A stretch of 63,432 bases of DNA from Dehalococcoidia bacterium (lineage in GTDB: Bacteria > Chloroflexota > Dehalococcoidia > GIF9 > AB-539-J10), in the NCBI GenBank assembly GCA_030615625.1, contig JAUWYX010000009.1, forward strand, positions 1 to 63,432. The letters are read 5' to 3'. The position numbers and the translations under genes were made by a program. The notes under the pieces were generated by a model. It did not search any database. It was not told the origin of the DNA and was given only the letters and a program-made list of their open reading frames with translations. Below, in pieces: positions 1,627 to 31,045 of this stretch (positions are counted from its first letter, which is position 1; the number at the start of each line of letters is the position of its first letter).

Positions 1627-1947
1627 ATTAGTGCCTCCTTATTGTTCATATTCGATTAATGGTAATGGCGTAACATGGGTTTCAACAACGGCCAATGGTT
1701 ATGTATAGTCTACAAAAACAGTGCATTTTTTCGCAGAATTATGGGACATTTCATAGTTCCGAGTACCACCCGCTTACAGCGCTATTCTATTATAGTATAG
1801 CATTTCCTGCGAATGCCAGGGACACCATACCAATTAGGCCTAATGTACCCAGAATACCCGGCTCATTCGGAGTATAATAGGTTGAAAAACCAAAGCACAG
1901 GTATATATAATTTTCACAGCATAATAATCAAACAGAGGTATATAAGC
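1627..1947. other. Intergenic region with truncated repeat
   Basis: This 321-bp spacer lies between the divergent DUF350 and haloalkane dehalogenase genes. It holds the internally deleted REP-like copy at 1813-1858 and AT-rich stretches (around 1790-1800 and 1873-1880) that could contain promoters, but no convincing -35/-10 pair was found. No gene is seen. Confidence 0.6.
1813..1858. repeat. REP-like palindromic repeat, copy 2 (internally deleted)
   Basis: Same left arm as the other copies and the terminal CCCAGAATACC, but about 16 bp are missing between the AGGCCTA core and the right arm. This copy can no longer form the full hairpin. Confidence 0.8.
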
Positions 1948-2844
1948 ATGCCAGTTATCCGTACGCCAGATGAACGTTTTTCCAAATTGCCTGATTTCCC
2001 TTTTGCCCCACACTATATTGAAGTTAACGGATTGCGCATACATTATGTGGATGAAGGCAAAGGAGAGACCATACTCTGTTTGCATGGCGAGCCCTCATGG
2101 TCATTTCTATACCGTAAAATGATTGCCTCTATGTCAAAGCAGCACCGTGTTATAGCTATGGACTTTATCGGCTTTGGCCGGTCTGATAAGTTCACCGAGC
2201 GGGAGGCGTATACCTTTAAGATGCATCTGGACACGCTGATGGGCTTTATAAAGGCGATGAACCTTGAGCAGATAACTGTTGTGGTGCAGGATTGGGGTGG
2301 GTTGATTGGTCTGGCTGCGGTCGCTCATATGTCGGAACGTTTTGCCAGGCTGGTTATCATGAACACCGGCCTGCCCACAGGTAAGGGAAAGCCCAGCGAA
2401 GCTTTTCTGGCATGGCGTAATTATGCTGAGAGTCATCCTGATTTACAGGTCGGGCAATCGATGCTTGGCGGCGTTGCTCACCCCGAGAGGCTTACAAAGG
2501 AAATCATCGCCGCTTATGAAGCGCCGTTTCCGGACGTTACATATAAGGCTGGGGCTGCCGTATGGCCACTACTCGTCCCCATTAGCCCTGAAGGCCCTGC
2601 TTCTGCTGAAATGCGGCATGCTCGCGAGGTTCTGTCAGGATGGGACAAGCCGGCCCTGGTCATGTTTTCAGATAAAGACCCTATTACAGGTGGCGGTGAC
2701 AAATTCTTTCGCTCTCTTATACCTACAGCCAAAGACCAGCCGGAGATTATAATCAAGGACACCGGTCACTTTCTTCAGGAAGAGAAAGGCGAGGAAATAT
2801 CTCAGCATATACTGGATTTCATAAGCAGAACGCCTGTTGCCTAG
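1948..2844 (+). CDS. Haloalkane dehalogenase (alpha/beta hydrolase)
   Basis: 298 residues from the ATG at 1948, chosen because AGAGGT lies 9 nt upstream and the family begins near here; the frame stays open upstream into the repeat. Family hallmarks are the oxyanion motif 'His-Gly-Glu-Pro-Ser-Trp' (46-51), nucleophile Asp115 followed by halide-binding Trp116 in 'Gln-Asp-Trp-Gly-Gly', second halide Trp156, catalytic acid Asp242 and His274 in 'Gly-His-Phe'. The arrangement follows the DhlA-type subfamily (acid after strand 7). Such enzymes hydrolyse carbon-halogen bonds to an alcohol plus halide in the cytoplasm. It is a single gene between two REP-like elements; its real substrate is unknown. 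Confidence 0.88.
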   Translation: MPVIRTPDERFSKLPDFPFAPHYIEVNGLRIHYVDEGKGETILCLHGEPSWSFLYRKMIASMSKQHRVIAMDFIGFGRSDKFTEREAYTFKMHLDTLMGFIKAMNLEQITVVVQDWGGLIGLAAVAHMSERFARLVIMNTGLPTGKGKPSEAFLAWRNYAESHPDLQVGQSMLGGVAHPERLTKEIIAAYEAPFPDVTYKAGAAVWPLLVPISPEGPASAEMRHAREVLSGWDKPALVMFSDKDPITGGGDKFFRSLIPTAKDQPEIIIKDTGHFLQEEKGEEISQHILDFISRTPVA

Positions 2845-2873
2845 TATTTCGGCAGGTCTTATAGACTAGGTCA

Positions 2874-2935
2874 ATTCCAGGAACACCATACCGATCAGGC
2901 CTACTACAAATCAGGTATTATGTCCCCGGAATTCC
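2874..2935. repeat. REP-like palindromic repeat, copy 3
   Basis: Full-length copy with small changes (GGAACACC in the left arm, GGAATTCC at the right end). It lies between the convergent haloalkane dehalogenase and AMP-ligase genes. Confidence 0.9.
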
Positions 2936-2982
2936 GTACTGGACAGCACAAAACATCTCGGTCGGCCGTCTCAGTCTCCCTT

Positions 2983-4476
2983 TCAGCTTTCCTTTATGCC
3001 GCTGAGTAGTCTCCGGTCTATCTGGCCCGACCCGGTTCTAGGCAGGCCGTCAACAAACTTGATTTGTTTGGGCACTTTATAATCGGATAAGTTCTGGCGG
3101 CAAAAATCGCGTATTTCGTCCGCCGTAGCGATTTGTCCTTCCTTAAGCACTATGAAAGCTGTGGGTATTTGCCCTTTGTAATCATCAAGGACACCGACAC
3201 AGGCTGTTTCGGCTACCGCGGGATGCCTCAGGAGAACTTCTTCAACTGTCGCGGGGAGAATTTTGACTCCCCCCGAGGGCACTATAATAGATGATGTCTT
3301 TTCTATATACTCTAGATAGCCGTCCTCATCCAGCCTGACCAGATCGCCGGTATGAAACCAACCATCTTTGATAACTTGGGATGTGAGTCCAGGCGACTTG
3401 TAGTATTCTTTCATCATCCAGGGGGCTCTGGCAACGGCCTCCCCTACGCTGCCCCGGGTTACTTCCTTGCCGTTGTTATCCAGCACCCTAAGCTCAGACA
3501 AAGGCCTTCCTGCGGTGCCCAATTTGCGGTCATGGATAGCACCCAGAGTGACGATTATTAACTCCGTGAGTCCATATATTTCGCACGCAGTTAAGCCGAA
3601 CTTATTCTCAAGCATCTCCATAAAATGAGCTGAGGATTTTGCCCCGGAAGAAAGCGCCACCCTTAATGAACTAAGGTCATAGCTCTTAATCGTGTCTTCG
3701 TCTATCCTGGCTAAGGCATTAAAGCTAGCCGGGACGCCTACAAACATGGTTACTTTTTCCCGCTCTACAGTCTCCAGGACATTCTTTAGACTGAAATGAG
3801 GGAGGATTACCATAGTGGCTCCCTTCATAATGGGCGTGAGAACAATCATCCCAAATCCCAGAAGGTAGTTAAAAGGAATCAATCCTAAAACAACATCGTC
3901 TCTCTCCAGTTCCAGTCTTGGCACCATTTCGAGTAGGACTGACATGAACGATGCGTGGGTATGCACTATGCCTTTTTGCTTCCCCAGCACACCCAGGGTG
4001 TGAAAAACGATAGCTTCATCCTCGTCCTCTATATCAACAGAGGGTGATACAGGGGAACTACTACCCACCATCCCATTGTAAGGGTCTGTACCGATTTCAA
4101 GGACCTGTTTCAGCAGGGGGATATTGGGTAAAACTGAAGACAGCAAGGGGGAGAATCTTTCTTCGGTAATTAAGATTTTGGAGTCAGAGTCACGGAGTAG
4201 AGGCTCAAGTTCGGGCGCCTTAGCTCTGGTATCGAGGAGCACAGCCACAGCTCCAGCTTTAAGCACTCCAAAACAATTGATGACCCACTCAGGGGTACGA
4301 GACATCAGAATGGCTACATGGTCGCCCTTCTTTATTCCTAGACTTATAAGAGCGTTGGCTACCCTGTTAGAAGTCTCATCCAGTTCCCGATAGCTAACTC
4401 TTCGAGAGCCAAGGGCGATAGCCGTTTGATGTGGCATCTCGCTGGCAATTCTTTCTAGCATTTGTTTGAGATTCAT
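2983..4476 (-). CDS. AMP-dependent acyl-CoA synthetase-like protein, catalytic motifs altered
   Basis: 497 residues of the ANL adenylating superfamily. Recognisable are 'Tyr-Gly-Leu-Thr-Glu' (A5), 'Gly-Trp-Phe-His-Thr-Gly-Asp' (A7) and the C-terminal lid. The Ser/Thr/Gly-rich phosphate-binding loop is degenerate (residues about 159-169, reading Leu-Gly-Val-Leu-Gly-Lys-Gln-Lys-Gly), and the usual catalytic Lys of the 'Thr-Gly-Lys' A10 motif is Gln485. It is therefore either a weak or specialised adenylase or a non-catalytic acyl-binding relative. The GGAGGAGA ribosome-binding site supports the ATG start. It stands alone, divergent from the methyltransferase and flanked by repeats. Confidence 0.8.
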   Translation of the reverse strand: MNLKQMLERIASEMPHQTAIALGSRRVSYRELDETSNRVANALISLGIKKGDHVAILMSRTPEWVINCFGVLKAGAVAVLLDTRAKAPELEPLLRDSDSKILITEERFSPLLSSVLPNIPLLKQVLEIGTDPYNGMVGSSSPVSPSVDIEDEDEAIVFHTLGVLGKQKGIVHTHASFMSVLLEMVPRLELERDDVVLGLIPFNYLLGFGMIVLTPIMKGATMVILPHFSLKNVLETVEREKVTMFVGVPASFNALARIDEDTIKSYDLSSLRVALSSGAKSSAHFMEMLENKFGLTACEIYGLTELIIVTLGAIHDRKLGTAGRPLSELRVLDNNGKEVTRGSVGEAVARAPWMMKEYYKSPGLTSQVIKDGWFHTGDLVRLDEDGYLEYIEKTSSIIVPSGGVKILPATVEEVLLRHPAVAETACVGVLDDYKGQIPTAFIVLKEGQIATADEIRDFCRQNLSDYKVPKQIKFVDGLPRTGSGQIDRRLLSGIKES

Positions 4477-17750: not shown

Positions 17751-19694
17751 ATGATTGCAGCTCGATTCAAGAAAGTTTTTGAACCAACGAGCATAGGCCA
17801 GATGCAACTGAAGAATCGCATAGTCATGCCCCCGACGGGAACCAATTATGCCGAAGAAGGCGGCGCTATTGGTCAGCGGACGCTTGATTACTATGAGGCG
17901 AGGGCTAGAGGTGGGGTAGGATTGATTATTGTCGAAGGAAGCGCACCCAACCCGCAACGCACCATATCTTACCAGGCATCTCTGGGAGACGATAAGTTGA
18001 TTCCCAGATGGCAAAAGCTGACAGATGCCGCTCACAAATACAATGCCAGAATAGCTATCCAGATAATGCATTCCACCATGGAGAACTGGGATGGAAAGGC
18101 GGTGCAGGTGGGTCCGTCCCCGTTAATAGTGCCCGCCAGAGTTATGGGTATCTCGGGAAAACCCCCTCATGAACTGACTGAGGAGGAAATTGCTGAGAGA
18201 ATAGGATGGTTTGCTTCGGCTGCCAGACGTGCCAAGGAGGCTGGCTTTGATGGGGTAGAGATTCATGGTGCTCACCAGTACCTTGTCGCCGCCTTTCTCT
18301 CCTCGGCTACCAACCAGCGCAAAGATAAATACGGTGGCTCGGTTGAGAATAAGGCAAGATTTTTGATAGAGATAATTCAGGCTATCAGAGAAGAGGTAGG
18401 CCCAGATTTTCCTGTTTGGGTCAGGATCAATGCCCAGGAATGGGGAGTGGAGGACGGGATTACCATCGAGGAGACCAAACAGGTGGTACCGCTGGTGGTG
18501 GCGGCAGGTGCTCAAGCGATTCACGTATCGGGTTATGGCGTGGGGTCTTATATAACCACCGCTCCAATTCCAGATACGCAGGGCTTTCTGGTACCTCTGG
18601 CTGAAGAGGTCAAAAAGCTGACCAACGTGCCGGTGATTGCAGTGGGCAGACTGGACCTTGAGCTTGGAGAGAGGATTCTCGAAGAGGGCAAAGCTGACCT
18701 TATAGCCATGGCCAGGCGTCTTATGGCAGACCCGGACCTGCCCAACAAGGCGGCCGAAGGAAGGCTCGATGAAGTTATCCCGTGCATAGGCTGTATGGAG
18801 TGTATTGAACGGCTCGCCTTCGATGAACGCGGCGAGGGCGTAATCTGCGTCGTCAATCCCACGTTGGGCAGGGAGAGGGAATACCAAATTAAGCCCGTGA
18901 GAAAGGCCAAGAATGTGGTTGTAGTTGGTGGTGGTCCGGCCGGTCTGCAGGCTGCCATTGTGGCAGCACGGAGAGGTCATGAGGTTACCTTGCTTGAAAA
19001 AGATGAGAAGCTGGGTGGACAACTGAATATAGCCGCCCTACCTCCATTTAAGGGCGATATCTCCCCCTGGATAAACTATCTGGTCAGTCAAGTTGAGAAA
19101 GCTGGAGTGGCAGTTAAGCTTAATACAGATGCCACTGCTGAAATCGTTATTGAAGGGAATCCAGATGCCGTTGTGATAGCCACAGGAGGCACTCCAGCCA
19201 TGCCTGACACACCTGGCATTGATAAACCAAATGTGGTTACTGCTCAGGATGTACTCTCGGGCAAAGCCGGGGCCGGGCAGAATGTGGTCATCATTGGTGG
19301 GGGGATGATTGGCTGTGAGACGGGGCACTATCTGGCGGAACAGGGAAAGACGGTGACCATCATAGAAATATTGAAACGGATGGCTAGCGACATGTTATTC
19401 ATGACAAGACGTCGGCTCATGGATGGGCTGAGGAGCAAAAAGGTGACCCTGCTGACCAGCGCGACCTGTGAAGAGATAAAGGAAGACAGTGTTCGAGTAA
19501 CTACTGCTGAGGGTAAGAAGGAAACCATTCCAGCCGACACAGTCATTATAGCAGTCGACTACAAGGCGAATGATCGCCTATACAAAGCCCTGGAAGGTAA
19601 AGTCCCTGAAATATACTGCATAGGTGATTCTTCCCAACCACGGAGAATACTGGAAGCTACCAGTGAAGGATACCGGACCGGGCTGGCTTTATAA
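17751..19694 (+). CDS. NADH:flavin oxidoreductase / 2,4-dienoyl-CoA (2-enoate) reductase family
   Basis: 647 residues. Residues 1-330 form an Old-Yellow-Enzyme FMN barrel. Then come iron-sulfur cysteines at about 345, 348, 351 and 366, and a C-terminal FAD/NAD(P) module ('Val-Val-Gly-Gly-Gly-Pro-Ala-Gly' near 385 and 'Ile-Ile-Gly-Gly-Gly-Met-Ile-Gly' near 505). The layout matches FadH/BaiCD-type enzymes that reduce C=C bonds of enoates. Cys spacing (x2, x2, x14) differs from the usual FadH x2, x3, x11. A GGAGGAA site precedes the ATG. It leads a run with FAH- and MBL-type hydrolases, suggesting ring or enoate degradation. Confidence 0.87.
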   Translation: MIAARFKKVFEPTSIGQMQLKNRIVMPPTGTNYAEEGGAIGQRTLDYYEARARGGVGLIIVEGSAPNPQRTISYQASLGDDKLIPRWQKLTDAAHKYNARIAIQIMHSTMENWDGKAVQVGPSPLIVPARVMGISGKPPHELTEEEIAERIGWFASAARRAKEAGFDGVEIHGAHQYLVAAFLSSATNQRKDKYGGSVENKARFLIEIIQAIREEVGPDFPVWVRINAQEWGVEDGITIEETKQVVPLVVAAGAQAIHVSGYGVGSYITTAPIPDTQGFLVPLAEEVKKLTNVPVIAVGRLDLELGERILEEGKADLIAMARRLMADPDLPNKAAEGRLDEVIPCIGCMECIERLAFDERGEGVICVVNPTLGREREYQIKPVRKAKNVVVVGGGPAGLQAAIVAARRGHEVTLLEKDEKLGGQLNIAALPPFKGDISPWINYLVSQVEKAGVAVKLNTDATAEIVIEGNPDAVVIATGGTPAMPDTPGIDKPNVVTAQDVLSGKAGAGQNVVIIGGGMIGCETGHYLAEQGKTVTIIEILKRMASDMLFMTRRRLMDGLRSKKVTLLTSATCEEIKEDSVRVTTAEGKKETIPADTVIIAVDYKANDRLYKALEGKVPEIYCIGDSSQPRRILEATSEGYRTGLAL

Positions 19695-19708
19695 AGGTTT
19701 CAGGCACA

Positions 19709-19736
19709 CTGGCTGCCTGGGCGACTAGGCAGCCAG
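19709..19736. terminator. Perfect 10-bp hairpin after the oxidoreductase gene
   Basis: CTGGCTGCCT and AGGCAGCCAG pair perfectly around an 8-nt loop, 15 bp after the stop. No T-run follows, so it may be a Rho-assisted terminator or mRNA-stabilising hairpin rather than a full intrinsic terminator. Confidence 0.45.
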
Positions 19737-19863
19737 GCAGAGGTCCAGAGTATACCTGAGGGTGAGATTGCACATTTGCCTGGATTGTACAAGATGGTAA
19801 TCTCTTGACATACCATACGAGAAGCCGATAGTATGCAGGGGCTACAGGAGGAAGGAGGAGGGA

Positions 19864-20868
19864 ATGAAGCTAGTGACTTTCGGGGTTCCCAAACTAGGTG
19901 GCCAGATACAGCGCATCGGAGCCATACACCAGAATAAAGTTATCGATCTCAATATAGGCTATACCCGCTATCTCACTGATAAGTATAGCAATACTCAGGC
20001 CTACGAACTAGCGGCAGCAATGCTTCCACCTGACATGATTGCCTTCTTCCGGAGAGGAAATGAAGGAAAAGCCGAGGCCGAGATGACCATCGACTATGTG
20101 GCGAAATACCAAGTCAAAGGCAGCTTGTTTGGTCCCCGGGGTGAAAAGATAGTCTACGAAATGAATGAGATCAAGCTGAAGGCGCCAGTGCCGCGGCCGA
20201 ATTCCTTGCGGGATTATCTCGCCTTCGAGGGCCACGCCAGCTTTTCTGGGAAGAGGCAACTTGACAAAGGCTGGTATGAGATACCGGTATGCTATAAGGG
20301 TAATCCTGACACTGTCATTGGCCCCGACGAAATCATTCTCTGGCCTGCCTTCACCGATTTGCTGGACTATGAGTTGGAATACGGCATCTATATTGGCAAA
20401 GAAGGCAAAAACATCTCAAGGGAACGAGCAGAGGAGTACATTGCTGGCTATACTATCTTCAACGACATCAGTGCCCGCGATATCCAGTTGCAGGAGATGC
20501 TGGCAGGTGGCCTCGGTCCGGCTAAGGGCAAGGACACCTGTAGTGTCATGGGGCCTTGCCTGGTGACCCCTGAGGAGGTGAACCCTAAGAACCTGCGGAT
20601 GATAGCCCGTGTCAACGGTGAGTTATGGTCGGATAATAACAGCGGCACGGCTTACTGGACCTGGCCTCAGATTGTTGAGTTTGCTTCCATGGAGGAGACG
20701 CTATATCCCGGTGATTTCTTGGGCTCGGGGACGGTGGAGGGTGGTTGTGGTATGGAACTAAACCGTTGGATTCAGCCAGGCGATGTCATCGAGCTGGAGA
20801 TGGAAGGTATCGGCATCCTCAGGAACCGCGTTGGAGAGAAGCCGCCGAAGCGTATGTTCACCCGGTGA
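19864..20868 (+). CDS. Fumarylacetoacetate hydrolase (FAH) family protein
   Basis: 334 residues. The metal-binding core of the FAH/hydratase fold is visible: 'Asp-Tyr-Glu-Leu-Glu-Tyr-Gly' (the two Glu ligands), 'Asn-Asp-Ile-Ser-Ala-Arg-Asp' and 'Gly-Ser-Gly-Thr-Val-Glu-Gly-Gly'. Relatives hydrolyse acylpyruvates or hydrate/decarboxylate ring-cleavage products using Mg2+ or Mn2+. An AGGAGGAAGGAGG stretch is an unusually long ribosome-binding region just before the ATG. Its neighbours (enoate-reductase type, MBL hydrolase) fit a catabolic set; the exact substrate is unknown. Confidence 0.85.
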   Translation: MKLVTFGVPKLGGQIQRIGAIHQNKVIDLNIGYTRYLTDKYSNTQAYELAAAMLPPDMIAFFRRGNEGKAEAEMTIDYVAKYQVKGSLFGPRGEKIVYEMNEIKLKAPVPRPNSLRDYLAFEGHASFSGKRQLDKGWYEIPVCYKGNPDTVIGPDEIILWPAFTDLLDYELEYGIYIGKEGKNISRERAEEYIAGYTIFNDISARDIQLQEMLAGGLGPAKGKDTCSVMGPCLVTPEEVNPKNLRMIARVNGELWSDNNSGTAYWTWPQIVEFASMEETLYPGDFLGSGTVEGGCGMELNRWIQPGDVIELEMEGIGILRNRVGEKPPKRMFTR

Positions 20869-20954
20869 TATTTCTGTCTGCAAGGTGTTTTGCACGCCGC
20901 CAAGCATCTGAGACGAGCGGAGGTAAGCAGGGTTAAAAAGGAAGGGACACTACT

Positions 20955-21884
20955 ATGAACAAAGAATACACAATTCCGACCTGGGAACCGGGGGTCAAGC
21001 AGTTGGCTCCCAATATCTATGCCTATATCCAGGCAAAGGCTACCTGGTATTGGAGCAATGCCGGATTCATTGTAGGCAACGATTATGTGGTGGTCGTGGA
21101 TTCACTGTCTACGGTTGGCCTGACTCAGAGATTCAAGGGCGAGATTAGGAAGATCACCGATAAGCCAATTCGCTATTTAATCAACACCCATCACCATGGA
21201 GACCATATCTGGGGGAACCATGTGTTTGCGGGGGCTATCATAATCTCGCATGACTACTGCCGCCATGAGGCAATAGAGACAGGTGTAAGAGACCCTAGTC
21301 TGCTGAATACCATCTTCCCTGAATTCGATTTCCGGGGAATCACGGTCACGCCAGCTGATATCACCTTTGACAAGCAGCTTACACTGCATATGGATGGGCG
21401 GGAAGTCCGGCTACTACACTTTGGGCCTGGCCATACTGCTGGCGACATAATCGTGCATTTACCCGGGGAGGGTGTTATCTTTGCCGGCGACTTCATTTTT
21501 TTGTATTCCACCCCGCTGGGCATGGAAGGGTCCTTTGCTGGCTGGCTCAGGAACCTGGATGCCATGGTGAATCTGGGTGCCCGAGTCTATGTCCCCGGCC
21601 ATGGGCCGGTGTGCGGAGTGGAAGGGTTGAATCTGTGTCGCGATTATCTTGTCTTTGTCCGACGCGAAGCCAGGAAACGGTTCGACAAGGGCATGACTGT
21701 TGATGAAGCTGCCAAAGACATCGCCTTGGGGCAATTTAAGCAATGGCCCAACCACGAGCGCATTCTGGCCAACGTAGAACGCCTATGGCGCGAGTTCCGC
21801 GGCGAAGACCCTACCACCTCTAAACTGAATGTTGCCGAAGTCTTCTTACGGATGGACACCATGGCAAAGGCAGGAGAGCTGTAG
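20955..21884 (+). CDS. MBL-fold metallo-hydrolase
   Basis: 309 residues. The zinc-binding motif 'Thr-His-His-His-Gly-Asp-His' is near residues 76-82, with further ligands 'Gly-Pro-Gly-His-Thr-Ala-Gly-Asp', 'Phe-Ala-Gly-Asp-Phe' and 'Val-Pro-Gly-His-Gly-Pro'. It resembles the glyoxalase-II/SoxH-like MBL group that hydrolyses thioesters or lactones. A C-terminal helical region ('Thr-Val-Asp-Glu-Ala-Ala') is common in this group. It lies 86 bp after the FAH gene and probably shares its transcript. Confidence 0.87.
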   Translation: MNKEYTIPTWEPGVKQLAPNIYAYIQAKATWYWSNAGFIVGNDYVVVVDSLSTVGLTQRFKGEIRKITDKPIRYLINTHHHGDHIWGNHVFAGAIIISHDYCRHEAIETGVRDPSLLNTIFPEFDFRGITVTPADITFDKQLTLHMDGREVRLLHFGPGHTAGDIIVHLPGEGVIFAGDFIFLYSTPLGMEGSFAGWLRNLDAMVNLGARVYVPGHGPVCGVEGLNLCRDYLVFVRREARKRFDKGMTVDEAAKDIALGQFKQWPNHERILANVERLWREFRGEDPTTSKLNVAEVFLRMDTMAKAGEL

Positions 21885-24431: not shown

Positions 24432-25103
24432 TTGTCTGAAGAGTTCACAATACGCACTTTTAGCAGTGACGAGGCTTTAGTCAAAGAGCGCAGAAATCAT
24501 ATAGTTCGATATTCTACAAAGGTGTTCACTAAGAAAGGGTATGACCGAACCAATATGCGTGAGTTGGCTAAAGCCTGCGAGATGAGTGCCGGTACGCTGT
24601 ATCACTATTTTGGTTCGAAAGAAGAGATCCTCTATTCGATTATCAACAGTGCTACGTCACAACAGGCGGGTTCTATGGAAGATTGGGCCAATGAGTTGGC
24701 AACGGTGAGCCCGACGATAGCTCTTGTAGAGATTATGAGAAAGTTTTATGAATGGCATGACGACAATCAGGATATTACTCTATTTGCATATCAGGAAACG
24801 AAGAACCTGCCAGGCAATGCCCGGCAAAGCATCTTTGACTCCGAAGCGCGTATATTGGCTGTATTTGAGAAGTTGCTGACAAGAGGAATTGAAGAGGGTG
24901 AATTTAATATTGATAATCCCAAGCTGATTGCCCATGACATAGTCGTTCTTGGGCATGCCTGGGCCCTCAGGCGTTGGTATTTGAGAAAACACTGGACGTT
25001 CAAAACATATGTAAAAGAACAGGCCGATGCTATTTTGAGGGCGATTACGGTAGATAATAACACTGGTGTTGCTATCAAACAGAGAAAGGAGTCATCCAAG
25101 TGA
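24432..25103 (+). CDS. TetR-family transcriptional regulator
   Basis: 223 residues from TTG 24432. N-terminal TetR helix-turn-helix: 'Ala-Lys-Ala-Cys-Glu-Met-Ser-Ala-Gly-Thr-Leu-Tyr-His-Tyr-Phe' near residues 48-62. The C-terminal half is an all-helical ligand domain similar to acyl-CoA-sensing regulators. It is first in the operon, its stop overlaps the thiolase-like GTG start, and a promoter plus palindrome lie upstream. Autoregulation and release by an acyl-CoA are likely but inferred. Confidence 0.9.
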   Translation: MSEEFTIRTFSSDEALVKERRNHIVRYSTKVFTKKGYDRTNMRELAKACEMSAGTLYHYFGSKEEILYSIINSATSQQAGSMEDWANELATVSPTIALVEIMRKFYEWHDDNQDITLFAYQETKNLPGNARQSIFDSEARILAVFEKLLTRGIEEGEFNIDNPKLIAHDIVVLGHAWALRRWYLRKHWTFKTYVKEQADAILRAITVDNNTGVAIKQRKESSK

Positions 25104-26470
25104 TTACTTTGAAGGAAGGTAATTTGCGCATTCCCAGATGGAACAGAAAGGTATTTGCCGTTGCTGGGGGTCTAACAAATTATAAGAAGTTCTGCCCGGA
25201 AATGAAGCTCGAAGAGCAGGTGATGGTTGCATTCCGGCAGATGTTGGAGAATAATGATTTAAAGCTCTCTCCGGTAGAAATCAAAGGATTAGTCAACTTT
25301 CTTGCCTGTGGTGAATTTGCCGACCACTTTCAAGACCAGCTCTTGTGCGAAGCTAAGGTCACTGACTACCTCGGTCTTGACCCCATATATGATATAGGTA
25401 TCAAGACTGGCGGGGCTACCGGTGGCTCCACAGTGCTGACAGCTGCTATGGCGGTAGCCAGTGGATATGCTGATGTGGCATTAGCCGTGGGCTGGGAGCG
25501 CATGTCTGAAGTGGATACGCGAACAGGCAATTACTACATTGCTAACGCAGCCTGTAAAGACTTTGAGACCAGGCTTTCCCGCATCTATGCTGCCTACTAT
25601 GCTCCTATGGCCGTCCGCTTCGCCTGGGCTTACAATCTCTCCGAGGAGACTAGAGCCAAGGTGGCAGTCAAGAATCACCTCTACGCCTATTACTCGCCAT
25701 ATTCCCAGCAACCAGGCAAATACACAATTCAGGATGTCCTTAACAGCCCAATGTCAACCTACCCGTTACGTTTCTTGGAATGCTGTGCCATGACAGATGG
25801 CGCGGCCTGCATGCTACTTTGCGATGAAGAAACTGCCTACAAGTTGACAGATAAACCTTGTGAGCTTTTCATAGCCGGCGGGAGCCATACCTTGAGAGTA
25901 GCGGATCGTAGAGACATGGAGATCCCGTTGTTGCCACACGAGACCGCCGATATGTATAAGGGCCTGCGCAAAAAAGAGGGGCAACGGTGGCCGGGATTTG
26001 AAAGCTTCGCTGCGTCACGATTTGCCGCTTATTTTGCCTACCGAATGGCTGGCATCACTAACCCGCTTGAAGAGCTTGACTTGGTGGAGCTGCATGATGC
26101 ATTTACCATAAGTGACATTCAAACTTATGGAGACATCGGACTTCGTCCCTATGGACAGGAACCTGATTACATTGAATCTGGGGACGCCTATTTTGATGGT
26201 AAATGTCCATCCAATCTGTCTGGAGGGTTGATAGGTACCATGCATGCTGTAGGGGCAACTGGCATCTTTCAAGGAATCGAGTGCCTCTGGCAGATACAGG
26301 GCAAGTATGATAAGTTTCATGGCGACCCCAAAATTTGGGAGTCTTTTGGCAAGAGGAAGCCCGAAGACTGGAAGAGCCTCCAGGTACCTAATGCTAAGCA
26401 GGCACTCTGGGTATCTCATGCTGGCGTAGGATCACATGTAACAGTAGGCATTCTCAAAAAGGCTTTTTAA
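25100..26470 (+). CDS. Thiolase-superfamily protein lacking the nucleophilic Cys
   Basis: 456 residues from a GTG overlapping the tetR-type stop. It has the thiolase fold of the SCP2/archaeal type: 'Ala-Val-Gly-Trp-Glu-Arg-Met-Ser', 'Glu-Leu-His-Asp-Ala-Phe-Thr' and 'Met-His-Ala-Val-Gly-Ala-Thr-Gly' with the active His. At the position of the usual acylated Cys the sequence reads Thr-Gly-Gly105-Ala-Thr-Gly, so thiolytic cleavage by the normal mechanism is unlikely. Immediately followed by a DUF35 gene, as in thiolase-DUF35 complexes (archaeal HMG-CoA synthesis; Ltp2-ChsH2 steroid aldolase). It may be an acyl-CoA aldolase or condensing partner. Confidence 0.8.
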   Translation: MITLKEGNLRIPRWNRKVFAVAGGLTNYKKFCPEMKLEEQVMVAFRQMLENNDLKLSPVEIKGLVNFLACGEFADHFQDQLLCEAKVTDYLGLDPIYDIGIKTGGATGGSTVLTAAMAVASGYADVALAVGWERMSEVDTRTGNYYIANAACKDFETRLSRIYAAYYAPMAVRFAWAYNLSEETRAKVAVKNHLYAYYSPYSQQPGKYTIQDVLNSPMSTYPLRFLECCAMTDGAACMLLCDEETAYKLTDKPCELFIAGGSHTLRVADRRDMEIPLLPHETADMYKGLRKKEGQRWPGFESFAASRFAAYFAYRMAGITNPLEELDLVELHDAFTISDIQTYGDIGLRPYGQEPDYIESGDAYFDGKCPSNLSGGLIGTMHAVGATGIFQGIECLWQIQGKYDKFHGDPKIWESFGKRKPEDWKSLQVPNAKQALWVSHAGVGSHVTVGILKKAF

Positions 26471-26482
26471 AGGAGGAAAACT

Positions 26483-27004
26483 GTGGCATCAAAAGGCAAG
26501 ATAACCAAGTATACTGGCAAACCCGCAAAGGTGCTTCAATCCGAACCAGCCATAGTGATAGAGTGGCCGAGGAGTCTGGCCCACAGGCATACTTATGGGA
26601 AACTCTCCCCGTTCTTCAAAGGTCTGACAGAGGGTAGATTACTAGCCACCAGATGCGCCAATCCTGAATGTGGAGAGCACAGGCTGTGGCTTCCGCCGCG
26701 GGCTGACTGTCCCGACTGCAACCAGCCCATGACCTGGGAAGAACTGCCCCAGCCAGTCATTGGCACAGTGCACACCTATGCGCGTGTGGAATATGCTGGC
26801 GCTGGCATAGAGCTCACTACCCCCTATTTTCAGGTTGACGTTGAGTTGCCTGGCGTATGCACTATATTCAAGGGCTATCTGCAATACGGAACACTCGAAA
26901 TAGGCATGAAAGTGAAGGCTTGCTTCCGCACCGAAGATCCGACCAACACAATTCTTGATATATACTGGATTCCTGTAGTCAATGATGCGGATGCCCGGTT
27001 TTGA
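26483..27004 (+). CDS. DUF35 Zn-ribbon/OB-fold acyl-CoA-binding protein
   Basis: 173 residues from GTG 26483 with AAGGAGG upstream. A zinc-ribbon Cys set ('Cys-Ala-Asn-Pro-Glu-Cys' and 'Cys-Pro-Asp-Cys', residues about 58-82) precedes an OB fold ('Gly-Thr-Val-His-Thr-Tyr-Ala-Arg-Val' onward). DUF35 proteins pair with thiolase-like subunits and help hold the CoA substrate; the gene sits 12 bp after such a subunit. An extra N-terminal segment of about 40 residues precedes the ribbon. Confidence 0.88.
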   Translation: MASKGKITKYTGKPAKVLQSEPAIVIEWPRSLAHRHTYGKLSPFFKGLTEGRLLATRCANPECGEHRLWLPPRADCPDCNQPMTWEELPQPVIGTVHTYARVEYAGAGIELTTPYFQVDVELPGVCTIFKGYLQYGTLEIGMKVKACFRTEDPTNTILDIYWIPVVNDADARF

Positions 27005-27063: not shown

Positions 27064-29025
27064 ATGGGCAAGTTACTTTGGGAGCCGACGGAAGAACGAA
27101 AGAAGAATGCGAACATAACCAGTTTTAGAGAGTTTGCTAATAAACGATATAAACAGAACTTTCATTCCTATAAGGAGCTTTATGACTGGTCCGTAGACAA
27201 AATACCGGATTTTTGGGCTTCTGTGTGGGATTTTGTTGAGGTGAAGGCTTCCAAAGGCTACGAAGTAGTGGTTGACGATGTAACTAAGATGCCCGGTGCA
27301 AAATGGTTTATTGGAGCTAGGCTAAATTTCGCCGAAAATCTATTGAGATACAGAGATAAGAATACAGCCTTCATATTCAAAGGAGAAACTCAAAAGTCAG
27401 CGAAGATGAGTTACGCTGAACTGTATAACTCTGTAGGACGCCTGGCAGAATCTCTTCGAGGAATAGGACTCAAGCCCGGAGACCGGGTAGCTGCCTACAT
27501 GCCTAATATGATAGAGACAGCTGTGGCGATGCTTGCCAGCACGAGTATTGGTGCTGTCTGGGCTTCGTGTGCCACGGACATCGGTTCTGGAGCAGCCATT
27601 GATCGCTTTGGTCAAATCGAACCAAAACTTTTGTTTACCGCTGATGGCTATTTCTATAAAGGGAAGGCTTTTGATTCCCTTTCCAGCGCTGCTGAAATTG
27701 TAAAGGGGATACCCTGTATTGAGAAAGTGGTAGTGACCCGCTACAGGGAAGAAAAACCCGATATCAGCCATATTCCTAACTCTGTATATTATGACGATTT
27801 CCTATCAGGAGGGACGCCTGAAATTCAATTTGAACAGTTGCCCGCAGACCATCCCGTGTTTATCATGTTTTCGTCAGGGACGACTGGCAAGCCGAAGTGC
27901 ATCGTTCAAGGAGCAGCCGGAATTCTGGTTAATCAACTGAAGGAGTTAATAATCCACACCGATTTAAAGCGAGATGATGTTCACTTCTTTATCACGACTT
28001 GTAGCTGGATGATGTGGAACTGGATGCTGACTTCTTTGGCCACAGGTAATACCATTATTTTGTATGATGGTAATCCTACCTACCCTGGGCCGAGGGCTAT
28101 GTGGAAACTGATTCAGGATGAAAAAGTCACTATGTTTGGCTGCAGCGCCAGTTATATTAACTACCTCAGGAACGAACACATTAAGCCGGCTAATGATTAC
28201 GATTTGTCATCATTAAAAGAGATATGGCAAACTGGTTCCGTTCTCTCGGCGGAAGGGTTTGAGTACGTGTACCAGGAAATCAAGAGGGACCTGCATTTTA
28301 ATTCCAGTTCAGGTGGTACAGACATCAATGGCTGCTTTTTCACTGGAAGTCCGATTCAACCTGTATACGCTGGTGAATTGCAGGGACCGGGTTTGGGGAT
28401 GAAGGTAAAAGCGTATGATGAAAAAGGTCGTCCGGTATTTGACAAACAGGGCGAACTCGTCTGTGAAGCGGCTGCCCCACCTATGCCGCTTCATTTTTGG
28501 AATGATCCGGCTGGTAACAAATACAGGGAGGCTTATTTTGGTGTTTACCCTAGTGTGTGGCGTCATGGGGACTACATCGTATTTCATAGTGATACTGGGG
28601 GAGCTACTTTTTATGGTCGCTCTGATTCAGTACTGAAACCATCCGGGGTTCGCATAGGTACAGCCGAAATATATAACGTAATGGAAGGGCTGCCGGAGAT
28701 TGCTGATAGCTTAGCAATAGGGCAGAGATGGGAAGGAGACCAGCGTGTCCTCCTCTTTGTCAAATTGGCTGAGGGATATCATCTGACGGAAGATCTGGAA
28801 ACTAAAATCAAGAGAAGTCTCCGTGAGAAAGCTTCCCCAAGACACGTCCCAGCGAGAATCATTGCGGTACCGGATATTCCTTACACCACGAACATGAAGA
28901 AGGTCGAAAGCGCTGTCACGAACATAATCCATGGCAGACCTGTCCTGAACAGGGATGCCCTGTGCAATCCCCAATGCCTTGATTGCTATGAGAAGCTTAT
29001 TAGAGAAGGGGTACTCAGATCTTAA
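27064..29025 (+). CDS. Acetoacetyl-CoA synthetase (acetoacetate-CoA ligase)
   Basis: 653 residues, the length and N-terminal extension of the acetoacetate-CoA ligase group ('Ala-Arg-Leu-Asn-Phe-Ala-Glu-Asn-Leu-Leu'). The adenylation motif 'Ser-Ser-Gly-Thr-Thr-Gly-Lys-Pro-Lys' and the C-terminal catalytic Lys region 'Thr-Asn-Met-Lys-Lys-Val-Glu' are intact, unlike the ligase at 2983. It activates acetoacetate (or a related oxo-acid) with ATP and CoA. In this operon it would feed or drain a 3-oxoacyl-CoA pool next to the thiolase-like/DUF35 pair. Confidence 0.9.
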   Translation: MGKLLWEPTEERKKNANITSFREFANKRYKQNFHSYKELYDWSVDKIPDFWASVWDFVEVKASKGYEVVVDDVTKMPGAKWFIGARLNFAENLLRYRDKNTAFIFKGETQKSAKMSYAELYNSVGRLAESLRGIGLKPGDRVAAYMPNMIETAVAMLASTSIGAVWASCATDIGSGAAIDRFGQIEPKLLFTADGYFYKGKAFDSLSSAAEIVKGIPCIEKVVVTRYREEKPDISHIPNSVYYDDFLSGGTPEIQFEQLPADHPVFIMFSSGTTGKPKCIVQGAAGILVNQLKELIIHTDLKRDDVHFFITTCSWMMWNWMLTSLATGNTIILYDGNPTYPGPRAMWKLIQDEKVTMFGCSASYINYLRNEHIKPANDYDLSSLKEIWQTGSVLSAEGFEYVYQEIKRDLHFNSSSGGTDINGCFFTGSPIQPVYAGELQGPGLGMKVKAYDEKGRPVFDKQGELVCEAAAPPMPLHFWNDPAGNKYREAYFGVYPSVWRHGDYIVFHSDTGGATFYGRSDSVLKPSGVRIGTAEIYNVMEGLPEIADSLAIGQRWEGDQRVLLFVKLAEGYHLTEDLETKIKRSLREKASPRHVPARIIAVPDIPYTTNMKKVESAVTNIIHGRPVLNRDALCNPQCLDCYEKLIREGVLRS

Positions 29026-29178: not shown

Positions 29179-30342
29179 ATGGATTTTGATTTGAGCGAGG
29201 AGCAGAATCTAACGCGCCAGGCGATTCGGGCTTTCGCTGAAAAGCAGATTGCCCCCATTGCCCGAGAGCTAGACGAAAGGGAAGAGTTTTCTGCCGAGTT
29301 AACGCGCAAAATGGCGGACTTAGGGCTGCTGGGTTGCTTTGTTCCAGAGAAATATGGCGGATCAAATATGGGCTACATCTCGTATGCAATCGCGGTTGAA
29401 GAGCTGGCGAGGGTGGATGCTTCCCAGGCCGCTACTATTGCTGCCGGAAACTCTCTAGGAATCGGTCCTATCTATTATTTCGGTGATGAGAAGCAAAAGC
29501 AAGAATGGCTTCCCAGGCTCTGTTCGGGAGAGTGTCTAGCTGCGTTTGGTCTGACGGAGCCTGATGCTGGCTCCGACGCTGGAAGCTCTCGAACCACCGC
29601 AACACTTGAAGGGGACTACTGGACTATCAATGGACATAAGATTTTTATCACAAACTCGGCTTGCCCATTAACCGGTGTTATTATTGTCCAGGCTGTCACT
29701 GGTAAGCATGAGGATGGCAAACCAGAGATTAGTTGCCTTATCGTTCCGAGCGACACACCTGGGTTGACAGCTAAGGAAATGAAAGACAAGATGATGTGGC
29801 GAGCATCCGACACGGGTGAACTTTTTTTCGATGATTGTATTGTGCCTGAAGCAAACCTTCTGGGAAAAAGGGGGGACGGCTTCCAGCAAATGCTTGCGAC
29901 ATTGGACGGCGGACGTCTAAGCATCGCCGCCATGGGATTAGGTGGGTCTCAGGCGGCTTTCGAGCTGGCCTTACAATACGCCAATTCACGCATCCAATTT
30001 GGACGGCCCATCGGTTCCTTTCAGGTCAACGCTTTCAAACTAGCCGACATGGCGTTAGAGATTGAACTGGCCAGGAATCTACTCTACAAGGTCTGCTGGC
30101 TACGAGAAAACGAACATCCCATTACTAAAGAGGCGGCCATGGCAAAATTGTTCTGTTCCGAGGTTATGGGCCGCTGTGTCCATCACGCAGTGCAACTTCA
30201 CGGAGGGTACGGGCTGATGAAGGATTATGAAGTCGAGAGATTATATCGGGACCAGAGGATTCTTGAGATCGGCGAGGGAACATCAGAAATACTACGCATC
30301 GTGATTGCTCGTAACATTGGCGTGTCGGGAAGGGCAATCTAG
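29179..30342 (+). CDS. Acyl-CoA dehydrogenase
   Basis: 387 residues of the short/branched-chain acyl-CoA dehydrogenase type. Motifs: 'Ala-Phe-Gly-Leu-Thr-Glu-Pro-Asp-Ala-Gly-Ser-Asp' (substrate/FAD loop), 'Ala-Met-Gly-Leu-Gly', 'Gln-Leu-His-Gly-Gly-Tyr-Gly' and 'Glu-Gly-Thr-Ser-Glu-Ile' with the probable catalytic Glu region. It oxidises an acyl-CoA to the enoyl-CoA, passing electrons to ETF, which is not encoded in the window. It is preceded by a 153-bp gap after the ligase without a recognised feature. Confidence 0.93.
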   Translation: MDFDLSEEQNLTRQAIRAFAEKQIAPIARELDEREEFSAELTRKMADLGLLGCFVPEKYGGSNMGYISYAIAVEELARVDASQAATIAAGNSLGIGPIYYFGDEKQKQEWLPRLCSGECLAAFGLTEPDAGSDAGSSRTTATLEGDYWTINGHKIFITNSACPLTGVIIVQAVTGKHEDGKPEISCLIVPSDTPGLTAKEMKDKMMWRASDTGELFFDDCIVPEANLLGKRGDGFQQMLATLDGGRLSIAAMGLGGSQAAFELALQYANSRIQFGRPIGSFQVNAFKLADMALEIELARNLLYKVCWLRENEHPITKEAAMAKLFCSEVMGRCVHHAVQLHGGYGLMKDYEVERLYRDQRILEIGEGTSEILRIVIARNIGVSGRAI

Positions 30343-30355
30343 AAAGAAGGGCACC

Positions 30356-31045
30356 ATGAAAAAGGAAAAGGCAAAACGCAAGACTTCTGCCAGATTGAGT
30401 CCGGCTAAGGGTAAGGCAGCGAGGCATGATGATTTCCTCACCGACCTGGCTAGCCTCGCTCGTATGGAAGAAGTGGATAGGGGAAAAGAATCTCTGGGCG
30501 ATCGGATTCGAAGGGTTCGAGAAATGCGGGAGCTTACCATTAGGGACCTCAGTAGTCGAACAGGGATTGATATAGCTACCCTGGAACGCATAGAATCAAG
30601 CGAAACGATTCCTGCATTAGGTCAGTTGGTTAGGCTAGGCAGAGCACTCGATATGAAGATGGGCTACTTTATATCTCCAGGAATTGACAAGCTCATGACT
30701 GTGGTGCGCAAGAATGAACGGCGGCCAATATCTCGCTATGGAGAGATGAAGAGTATGGAGTACGGCTACTTTTACGAGTCCTTAGCCCCGGAAAAGGCTG
30801 ACCGATTGATGGAGCCTTTTATTGTGACACTGGTGCCAACAGACAAGGAAGAGTTCTCCACCCACGCCGGACAGGAGTTTCTTTATGTCCTGGAGGGTGA
30901 AATGAAAGTACAAGTTGGAGATCGCGTCGAATTTCTCAAGGCTGGAGATGCCGTCTATTACGATTCTAGTCAACCTCACCTCGTTAGATGTGTCGGCACC
31001 ACTGTAACGAAGGTATTGGCTGTTCTCTATACGGGATCGAAATAG
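30356..31045 (+). CDS. XRE-cupin transcriptional regulator
   Basis: 229 residues from ATG 30356 (AGAAAGAAGGG upstream; an earlier frame opening would overlap the dehydrogenase). A Lys-rich N-terminus is followed by an XRE helix-turn-helix ('Thr-Ile-Arg-Asp-Leu-Ser-Ser-Arg-Thr-Gly-Ile', residues about 58-110) and a C-terminal cupin barrel ('His-Ala-Gly-Gln-Glu-Phe-Leu-Tyr-Val-Leu-Glu-Gly'). Such two-domain regulators bind a small ligand in the cupin and control the nearby operon. It lies 13 bp after the acyl-CoA dehydrogenase gene. Confidence 0.88.
   Translation: MKKEKAKRKTSARLSPAKGKAARHDDFLTDLASLARMEEVDRGKESLGDRIRRVREMRELTIRDLSSRTGIDIATLERIESSETIPALGQLVRLGRALDMKMGYFISPGIDKLMTVVRKNERRPISRYGEMKSMEYGYFYESLAPEKADRLMEPFIVTLVPTDKEEFSTHAGQEFLYVLEGEMKVQVGDRVEFLKAGDAVYYDSSQPHLVRCVGTTVTKVLAVLYTGSK

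Follow-up and report, generated by a model that had tools for sequence, protein, structure and literature searches.

The window analysed here is a stretch of 63,432 nucleotides, positions 1 to 63,432 of contig JAUWYX010000009.1 of a Dehalococcoidia bacterium (Chloroflexota, GIF9, AB-539-J10; assembly GCA_030615625.1, genome G000 in the following). It contains a gene for a thiolase-like protein without the catalytic cysteines of thiolases and, 12 bp downstream, a gene for a DUF35 protein. Each of the two open reading frames (ORFs) is preceded by a Shine-Dalgarno-like AAGGAG. Genes for an acetoacetate-CoA ligase (AACS) and an acyl-CoA dehydrogenase (ACAD) adjoin the pair (Table 1), as a preliminary description of this stretch had stated. 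The thiolase-like protein is almost certainly not a classical thiolase.

Active site of the thiolase-like protein

The preliminary description placed Gly105 at the nucleophile position, with the active His retained, and considered a classical thiolase reaction unlikely; all of this holds. In a phmmer alignment with 6esq, an archaeal acetoacetyl-CoA thiolase, Gly105 stands opposite the nucleophile Cys. Relatives were collected by a scan of a genome collection (21 loci) and from 400 Chloroflexota genomes (15 of them matching at 1e-100 or better), and conservation is counted on an alignment of 29 family members. Gly occupies position 105 in 29/29 of these, from five phyla, and is thus neither a sequencing error nor a lone oddity. 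A separate, independent multiple alignment shows this to be no alignment slip: 5/5 Cys-type paralogues that do not belong to the family, including three encoded in G000, have Cys in this column, and all of them also carry HDCF and GHP.

The second catalytic Cys is lost as well, HDCF being changed to HDAF with Ala334, and the Cys of the CxG motif is missing, the residues there being S439-H440-A441-G442. The column of His332 contains His in 28/29 members and Tyr in the divergent L022, that of His382 His in 28/29 and Ala in one. His382 follows His332 by 50 residues, the same spacing as for the GHP His of SCP2 thiolase (counted by hand on alignments and published numbers). Thiolysis is very unlikely, given the absent nucleophile Cys, the retained His, the DUF35 partner and the AACS and ACAD neighbours. 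An ordinary thiolase with a relocated nucleophile would agree with the thiolase fold and the GHP-type His, but is hardly credible: the invariant columns of the 29 include no Cys, the motifs GGATGG, HDA[FY] and SHAG hold none (except for SHAC in one member), and C229, the only nearly invariant Cys, lies outside all catalytic motifs.

Gly105, D75, H76, Q80, Y163, Y167, N192 and H440 are invariant among the 29; the mean identity over the columns of the alignment is 60%. Between close relatives, the ratio of nonsynonymous to synonymous substitution rates (dN/dS) is 0.05-0.06 in three pairs, two further pairs being saturated at synonymous sites; strong selection therefore keeps the protein. That the active-site columns G105, H440, D75 and H76 exceed the mean in this way argues against a catalytically idle scaffold or substrate-channelling subunit, PhlA-like and partnering a true thiolase encoded elsewhere, as does the lack of any Cys-type thiolase among the genes of the window cluster. 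Such a role, to which we give a slight chance, has precedents in the inactive thiolase homologues described for PhlABC (PMC2954200) and in the protein t1 of the exchanged cassette described below, which has no catalytic motifs.

Two members deviate in other respects. L022:647-1852 encodes the divergent member, with GGATG and YDSY and with the GHP His replaced (GAPVG); its neighbours resemble, by eye, sugar/nucleoside genes and an ABC transporter, and it perhaps catalyses a different reaction. L041:8001-9372 is a second gene copy in genome G409; a frameshift near residue 166 divides it, and downstream lies an ORF that by eye resembles a transposase gene.

Table 1. Positions of genes and active-site codons of the cluster, numbered from the first nucleotide of the window
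Feature	Position (strand)	Remarks
TetR regulator	24432..25103 (+)	TetR_N + TetR_C_24; 4-nt overlap with the thiolase-like gene
Cysteine-free thiolase-fold protein (predicted), 456 aa	25100..26470 (+)	GTG start; Pfam Thiolase_N + Thiolase_C_1
Gly105 codon	25412..25414 (+)	Position of the thiolase nucleophile Cys, by alignment with the 6esq Cys
His332 codon	26093..26095 (+)	HDAF; thiolase HDCF; TcLtp2 Tyr294; CtSal Tyr302
His382 codon	26243..26245 (+)	MHAVGATG; thiolase GHP His; TcLtp2 Tyr344; CtSal Gln352
His440 codon	26417..26419 (+)	SHAG; beside the usual CxG/NxG position
DUF35 protein, 173 aa	26483..27004 (+)	GTG start; zinc ribbon + OB fold
Acetoacetate-CoA ligase (AACS)	27064..29025 (+)	TIGR01217, 828.2 bits (cut-off 520.9)
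Acyl-CoA dehydrogenase (ACAD)	29179..30342 (+)	Best model AcrC acryloyl-CoA reductase NF042972, 395 bits, below cut-off 640
XRE-cupin regulator	30305..31045 (+)	HTH_3 + Cupin_2; overlaps the ACAD end

Family, fold and partner

The best NCBIfam model is NF004982/PRK06365, "thiolase domain-containing protein" (6.6e-161), at 536 bits and below its cut-off of 695, which the clade B member L009 exceeds with 741 bits. The window protein belongs to a sister clade of PRK06365, a family with no assigned function. L009 shares GGATGG, HDA[FY], SHAG and the DUF35 neighbour with the window protein; the PRK06365 type has EGGG and GHPVG where the window clade, which stays under the cut-off, has KTGG and MHAVG. 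In a maximum-likelihood tree of 41 proteins, unrooted and with several long branches, the window protein falls into a clade of 18 (KTGGATGG, MHAVG; support 100/100). These 18 join 11 Chloroflexota proteins (EGGGATGG, GHPVG) to form 29 rows (99/93), followed by L022 (100/98), and the branch parting the window clade from NF004982-type proteins measures 1.24 changes per column. The Cys-type paralogues form one group of the tree and the t1/t2 proteins introduced below another. Members of the window clade come from Chloroflexota, Thermodesulfobacteriota, Pseudomonadota, Acidobacteriota and Planctomycetota, although metagenome bins may be mislabelled. Plasmids yielded no copies of the family, and in the open-licence literature, which leaves subscription journals outside its scope, no paper was recognised as treating the family or PRK06365.

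On its AlphaFold (AF2) model (pLDDT 84.5, pTM 0.90) the protein is predicted to have a thiolase fold, with the Pyrococcus thiolase 7yvy as best match (Z 51.5, 1.6 A, 355 residues), followed by ST0096 of Sulfolobus tokodaii (4yzo, 50.0), 6esq (49.5), BbsB (7pxp, 47.9) and SCP2 thiolase (46.5). The aldolases Ltp2 (6ok1) and Sal (9myr) reach Z 43.9 and 42.3, and the remaining listed thiolases 36.7 at most. Of the features that define a thiolase, the fold and the GHP-type His (His382 in MHAVG) are present and both catalytic Cys are absent.

A DUF35 gene lies 3' of the thiolase-like gene in 19/19 related loci that reach past it (21 loci examined). The DUF35 protein has a C4 zinc ribbon, C58-x4-C63-x12-C76-x2-C79, and an OB fold. 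It matches 6esq_E (6.2e-06) and, below the gathering score of 27.1, PF01796 (3.9e-05, 23.9 bits). Its AF2 model (pLDDT 85.7, pTM 0.72) is closest to the partners in Sal-Shy (9myr_B, Z 12.7) and Ltp2-ChsH2 (6ok1_B, 12.5), tied with Trf (12.1), and then to 6esq (11.3). The DUF35 proteins of the window clade retain the C4 ribbon; clade B partners without the zinc-ribbon cysteines are encoded at L048:9626-10189, L049:7382-7915, L052:9019-9570 and L054:5462-6004.

Among the closest folds, 6esq and BbsAB share the thiolase-DUF35 pairing, and 6esq and 7yvy retain the nucleophile Cys in alignments, unlike the window protein with Gly105; BbsB retains it as well. ST0096 likewise has no Cys there but a Ser, and possesses HDMA, not HDA[FY]; we know of no function for it. 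The nearest DUF35 complexes include, besides the thiolases 6esq and BbsAB, PhlABC and MucABC, which transfer acyl groups. A non-covalent acyl or Claisen transferase, moving the acyl group of a CoA ester to a small acceptor, for example acetoacetate, by direct attack or through another residue that replaces the Cys, would suit these relatives and the neighbouring AACS, which handles acetoacetate. Its probability is low, however, as position 105 offers no conserved Cys, Ser or Lys.

Ltp2-ChsH2 and Sal-Shy resemble the window pair in the thiolase fold without nucleophile Cys, in the DUF35 partner and in the company of ACAD and hydratase. In TcLtp2 the base is described as Tyr294, from the motif YDHF, and the acid as Tyr344; in CtSal, Tyr302 and Cys304 of YDCY are given as catalytic, Gln352 replaces Tyr344, and Gly stands at the nucleophile position of this retro-aldolase (PMC12329534). 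The preliminary description named Ltp2-ChsH2 among the known thiolase-like/DUF35 pairs and the catalytic Tyr residues of Ltp2 as a check. In the strict sense this check fails, as neither Tyr is present: His332 and His382 occupy both positions, the second of which (Tyr344, Gln352) is likewise, by hand count, 50 residues on from where the motif begins, and Sal Tyr302/Cys304 correspond to His332/Ala334. The window protein thus has the missing nucleophile Cys and the adjacent DUF35 partner of this group, but neither its Tyr base (HDAF) nor its catalytic acid (His382 and Ala334 instead). Its sequence and fold are nearer to archaeal and DUF35-type thiolases than to Ltp2 or Sal, and no steroid gene context was recognised around the window pair. 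By signature it is not a steroid aldolase of the Ltp2/Sal type; the same route could still be followed.

Gene neighbourhood and exchanged cassettes

Neighbourhoods were counted in the 21 related loci. An ACAD 64-97% identical to that of the window follows the pair or AACS in 9/21 (L023, L025, L026, L028, L031, L032, L034, L036, L042); in L029 and L041, ACADs of lower similarity are found upstream. Neither AACS nor ACAD adjoins the pair in L027, L030, L033, L035, L038, L039 and L040. L028 possesses a beta-keto-acid cleavage enzyme and a two-subunit CoA transferase in place of AACS, and a MaoC-like ORF nearby. The clade B locus L046 has the order thiolase-like gene, DUF35, MaoC, ACAD, which, with the MaoC-like ORF of L028, can be likened to the steroid-aldolase gene set in miniature. 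In L029, positions 1804-4467 encode an archaeal-type HMG-CoA (3-hydroxy-3-methylglutaryl-CoA) synthase (NF003274, 309 bits, cut-off 244) with a DUF35-like C-terminal fusion; this gene lies beside those for a Cys-type thiolase and an ACAD, and AACS and the cysteine-free pair follow directly. Upstream in the window (17751-21884) are genes for a BaiCD-like old yellow enzyme, an FAA hydrolase and a metallo-beta-lactamase-fold protein; these three also precede the pair in L025 (81-84% identity) and are absent ahead of it in the other annotated related loci. Relatives of the XRE-cupin gene adjoin VorB genes in Desulfarculaceae and Syntrophaceae loci.

AACS scores above cut-off in 9/13 genomes of clade A (the window type) and 2/11 of clade B, and also in G256 and G393, which have no NF004982 match at 1e-100 or better. 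A dependence of the thiolase-like gene on AACS was considered and rejected, the association being loose and phylum a confounder.

In clade B loci L048 and L051-L053 the pair stands head-to-head with a carboxylase operon, which in L048 comprises, by family models, carboxylase, MaoC and CitE-like genes. The last of these recalls the (R)-HMG-CoA lyase of leucine breakdown described from Mycobacterium (PMC6689899). Biotin-dependent carboxylase neighbours of this kind, the missing Cys and the two conserved His would suit a decarboxylase that forms an enolate from a malonyl-type CoA ester and then protonates it or adds it to a carbonyl. The KSQ domains of polyketide synthases, which have lost their Cys and decarboxylate, offer the comparison. 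Such a decarboxylase is nonetheless quite improbable for the window protein, whose cluster contains no carboxylase and whose fold matches are DUF35-type thiolases and aldolases. Of two relatives discussed in PMC12329534, the Cys-altered TbSLP is reported to decarboxylate malonyl-CoA weakly, but CtSal, in the tests described there, did not decarboxylate it.

An exchange of cassettes emerges from the comparison of two loci: L026, from a Dehalococcoidia bin, whose thiolase-like gene is 94% identical to that of the window, and L097, from genome G256 of the window's genus. Both are collinear on either side (79.8% DNA identity over 4.4 kb, 82.2% over 3.5 kb), with a hydratase on one flank, a generic crotonase in both, and the AACS/ACAD genes on the other. 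Between the flanks, L026 has the thiolase-like gene and DUF35 (within L026:7676-10070), and L097 has two thiolase-like genes and two DUF35 genes, t1-t2-DUF35-DUF35 (L097:4357-7981). The same four genes stand beside AACS and ACAD in L098 (genome G393). The protein t2 belongs to PRK06065 (624 bits, cut-off 455), with Gly at the nucleophile position and YDPF, an aldolase-like YDxF; t1 is PRK06066-like (470 bits, below cut-off 516). The PRK06065/PRK06066 set is thus, like the window pair, cysteine-free and DUF35-paired, with the same AACS/ACAD neighbours and in L097 the same hydratase, and differs in its two thiolase-like and two DUF35 genes, in about 26% identity to the window type and in the YDPF of t2. 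Residues 154-222 of a window-type TetR remain between the hydratase and the thiolase-like gene of L026 (L026:7723-8001), a recombination scar suggesting entry of the window-type block at this site; inspection of the printed L097 sequence by eye revealed no TetR piece. N-terminal TetR remnants are also found in L025 and L043. That one cysteine-free set stands in the place of the other is the best indirect evidence for a step common to both, and the Tyr motif of t2 points to aldol chemistry.

Proposed reaction and its place in metabolism

A retro-aldol or condensation reaction, proposed in the preliminary description for a branched CoA ester, remains the best reading, aided by the exchange with a YDxF-bearing set; the substrate may be such a branched ester. 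We consider the chances about even that the pair is a DUF35-dependent (retro-)aldol C-C lyase/ligase acting on a 3-hydroxyacyl-CoA without a covalent acyl-enzyme, possibly with release of a beta-keto acid such as acetoacetate. The 3-hydroxyacyl-CoA would be made by the neighbouring ACAD and, in relatives, the adjacent hydratase, and its thioester would dock in the thiolase oxyanion hole. His332, at the place of a Tyr in Ltp2/Sal, would take the beta-hydroxyl proton, and Calpha-Cbeta cleavage would give a ketone or aldehyde together with the enolate of an acyl-CoA, to be protonated by His382 or His440. DUF35 would close the acyl pocket, like its counterparts in Ltp2-ChsH2 and Sal-Shy. The pathway would lead from acyl-CoA over enoyl-CoA and 3-hydroxyacyl-CoA to acyl-CoA and a beta-keto acid, and from the latter to beta-ketoacyl-CoA; the AACS neighbour suggests a free beta-keto acid as the carbonyl product.

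Several findings weigh against this retro-aldolase. The catalytic Tyr residues of Ltp2/Sal are absent, we know of no proven His/His aldolase of the thiolase fold, and both His also occur in true SCP2-type thiolases and therefore need not be new catalysts. The window cluster itself contains no hydratase. AACS adjoins the pair in only 6/21 loci (L023, L024, L025, L026, L029, L042) and is common anyway, being above cut-off in 129/400 Chloroflexota. The two sets need not be equivalent, since L028 carries a t1/t2-like set as well as the window type. Clade B neighbours already include a CitE-type lyase gene, which argues against a role as HMG-CoA lyase there. In G000 the best methylcrotonyl-CoA carboxylase match has 38% identity, hence no close homologue, and VorB is found neither there nor in G242 at 1e-60.

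For the substrate of the retro-aldolase, an HMG-CoA-type ester is the most economical guess (3-methylglutaconyl-CoA to HMG-CoA to acetoacetate and acetyl-CoA), though a doubtful one. Canonical HMG-CoA lyase is present in 2/24 genomes and CitE-type lyase homologues in 11/26; in G000, G242, G082 and G408 neither type was detected at the thresholds used. Leucine breakdown via methylcrotonyl-CoA carboxylase was rejected as a general role, since the clade B carboxylase query finds matches of at least 60% identity in only 6/26 genomes (G255, G055, G005, G018, G402, G407). A route from 3-hydroxyisovaleryl-CoA by retro-aldol cleavage to acetone, and over acetone carboxylase to AACS, was rejected for the window organism by the gamma-subunit marker only, which occurs in 1/26 genomes and not in G000. 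VorB is found in 16/26 genomes at 1e-60; because it is missing from G000 and G242, a link to branched-chain 2-oxoacids is a lead only. As upstream sources of substrate in G000, a close carboxylase, VorB and acetone carboxylase were all not found at the thresholds used.

The most far-reaching form of this proposal, unlikely in its entirety, is a third design of thiolase-fold C-C lyase: a His/His retro-aldolase with DUF35, besides Tyr/Tyr in Ltp2 and Tyr/Cys in Sal, which would free an acetoacetate-type beta-keto acid from an HMG-CoA-like ester in anaerobes that have neither of the known HMG-CoA lyase types, and would be interchangeable in place with the cysteine-free PRK06065/PRK06066 complex, which belongs to another subfamily.

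The family has already been catalogued, without function, and databases label its members "acetyl-CoA acetyltransferase" or "thiolase domain-containing protein"; metabolic models will thereby assign them a reaction of which they are very probably incapable. What these names cover is a conserved clade, present in at least five phyla, whose active site lacks the catalytic cysteines and keeps conserved histidines. The cassette swap offers a pair of non-identical enzymes for comparison on one substrate, and if the protein is indeed an aldolase, it would provide an extra C-C lyase for anaerobic acyl-CoA breakdown.

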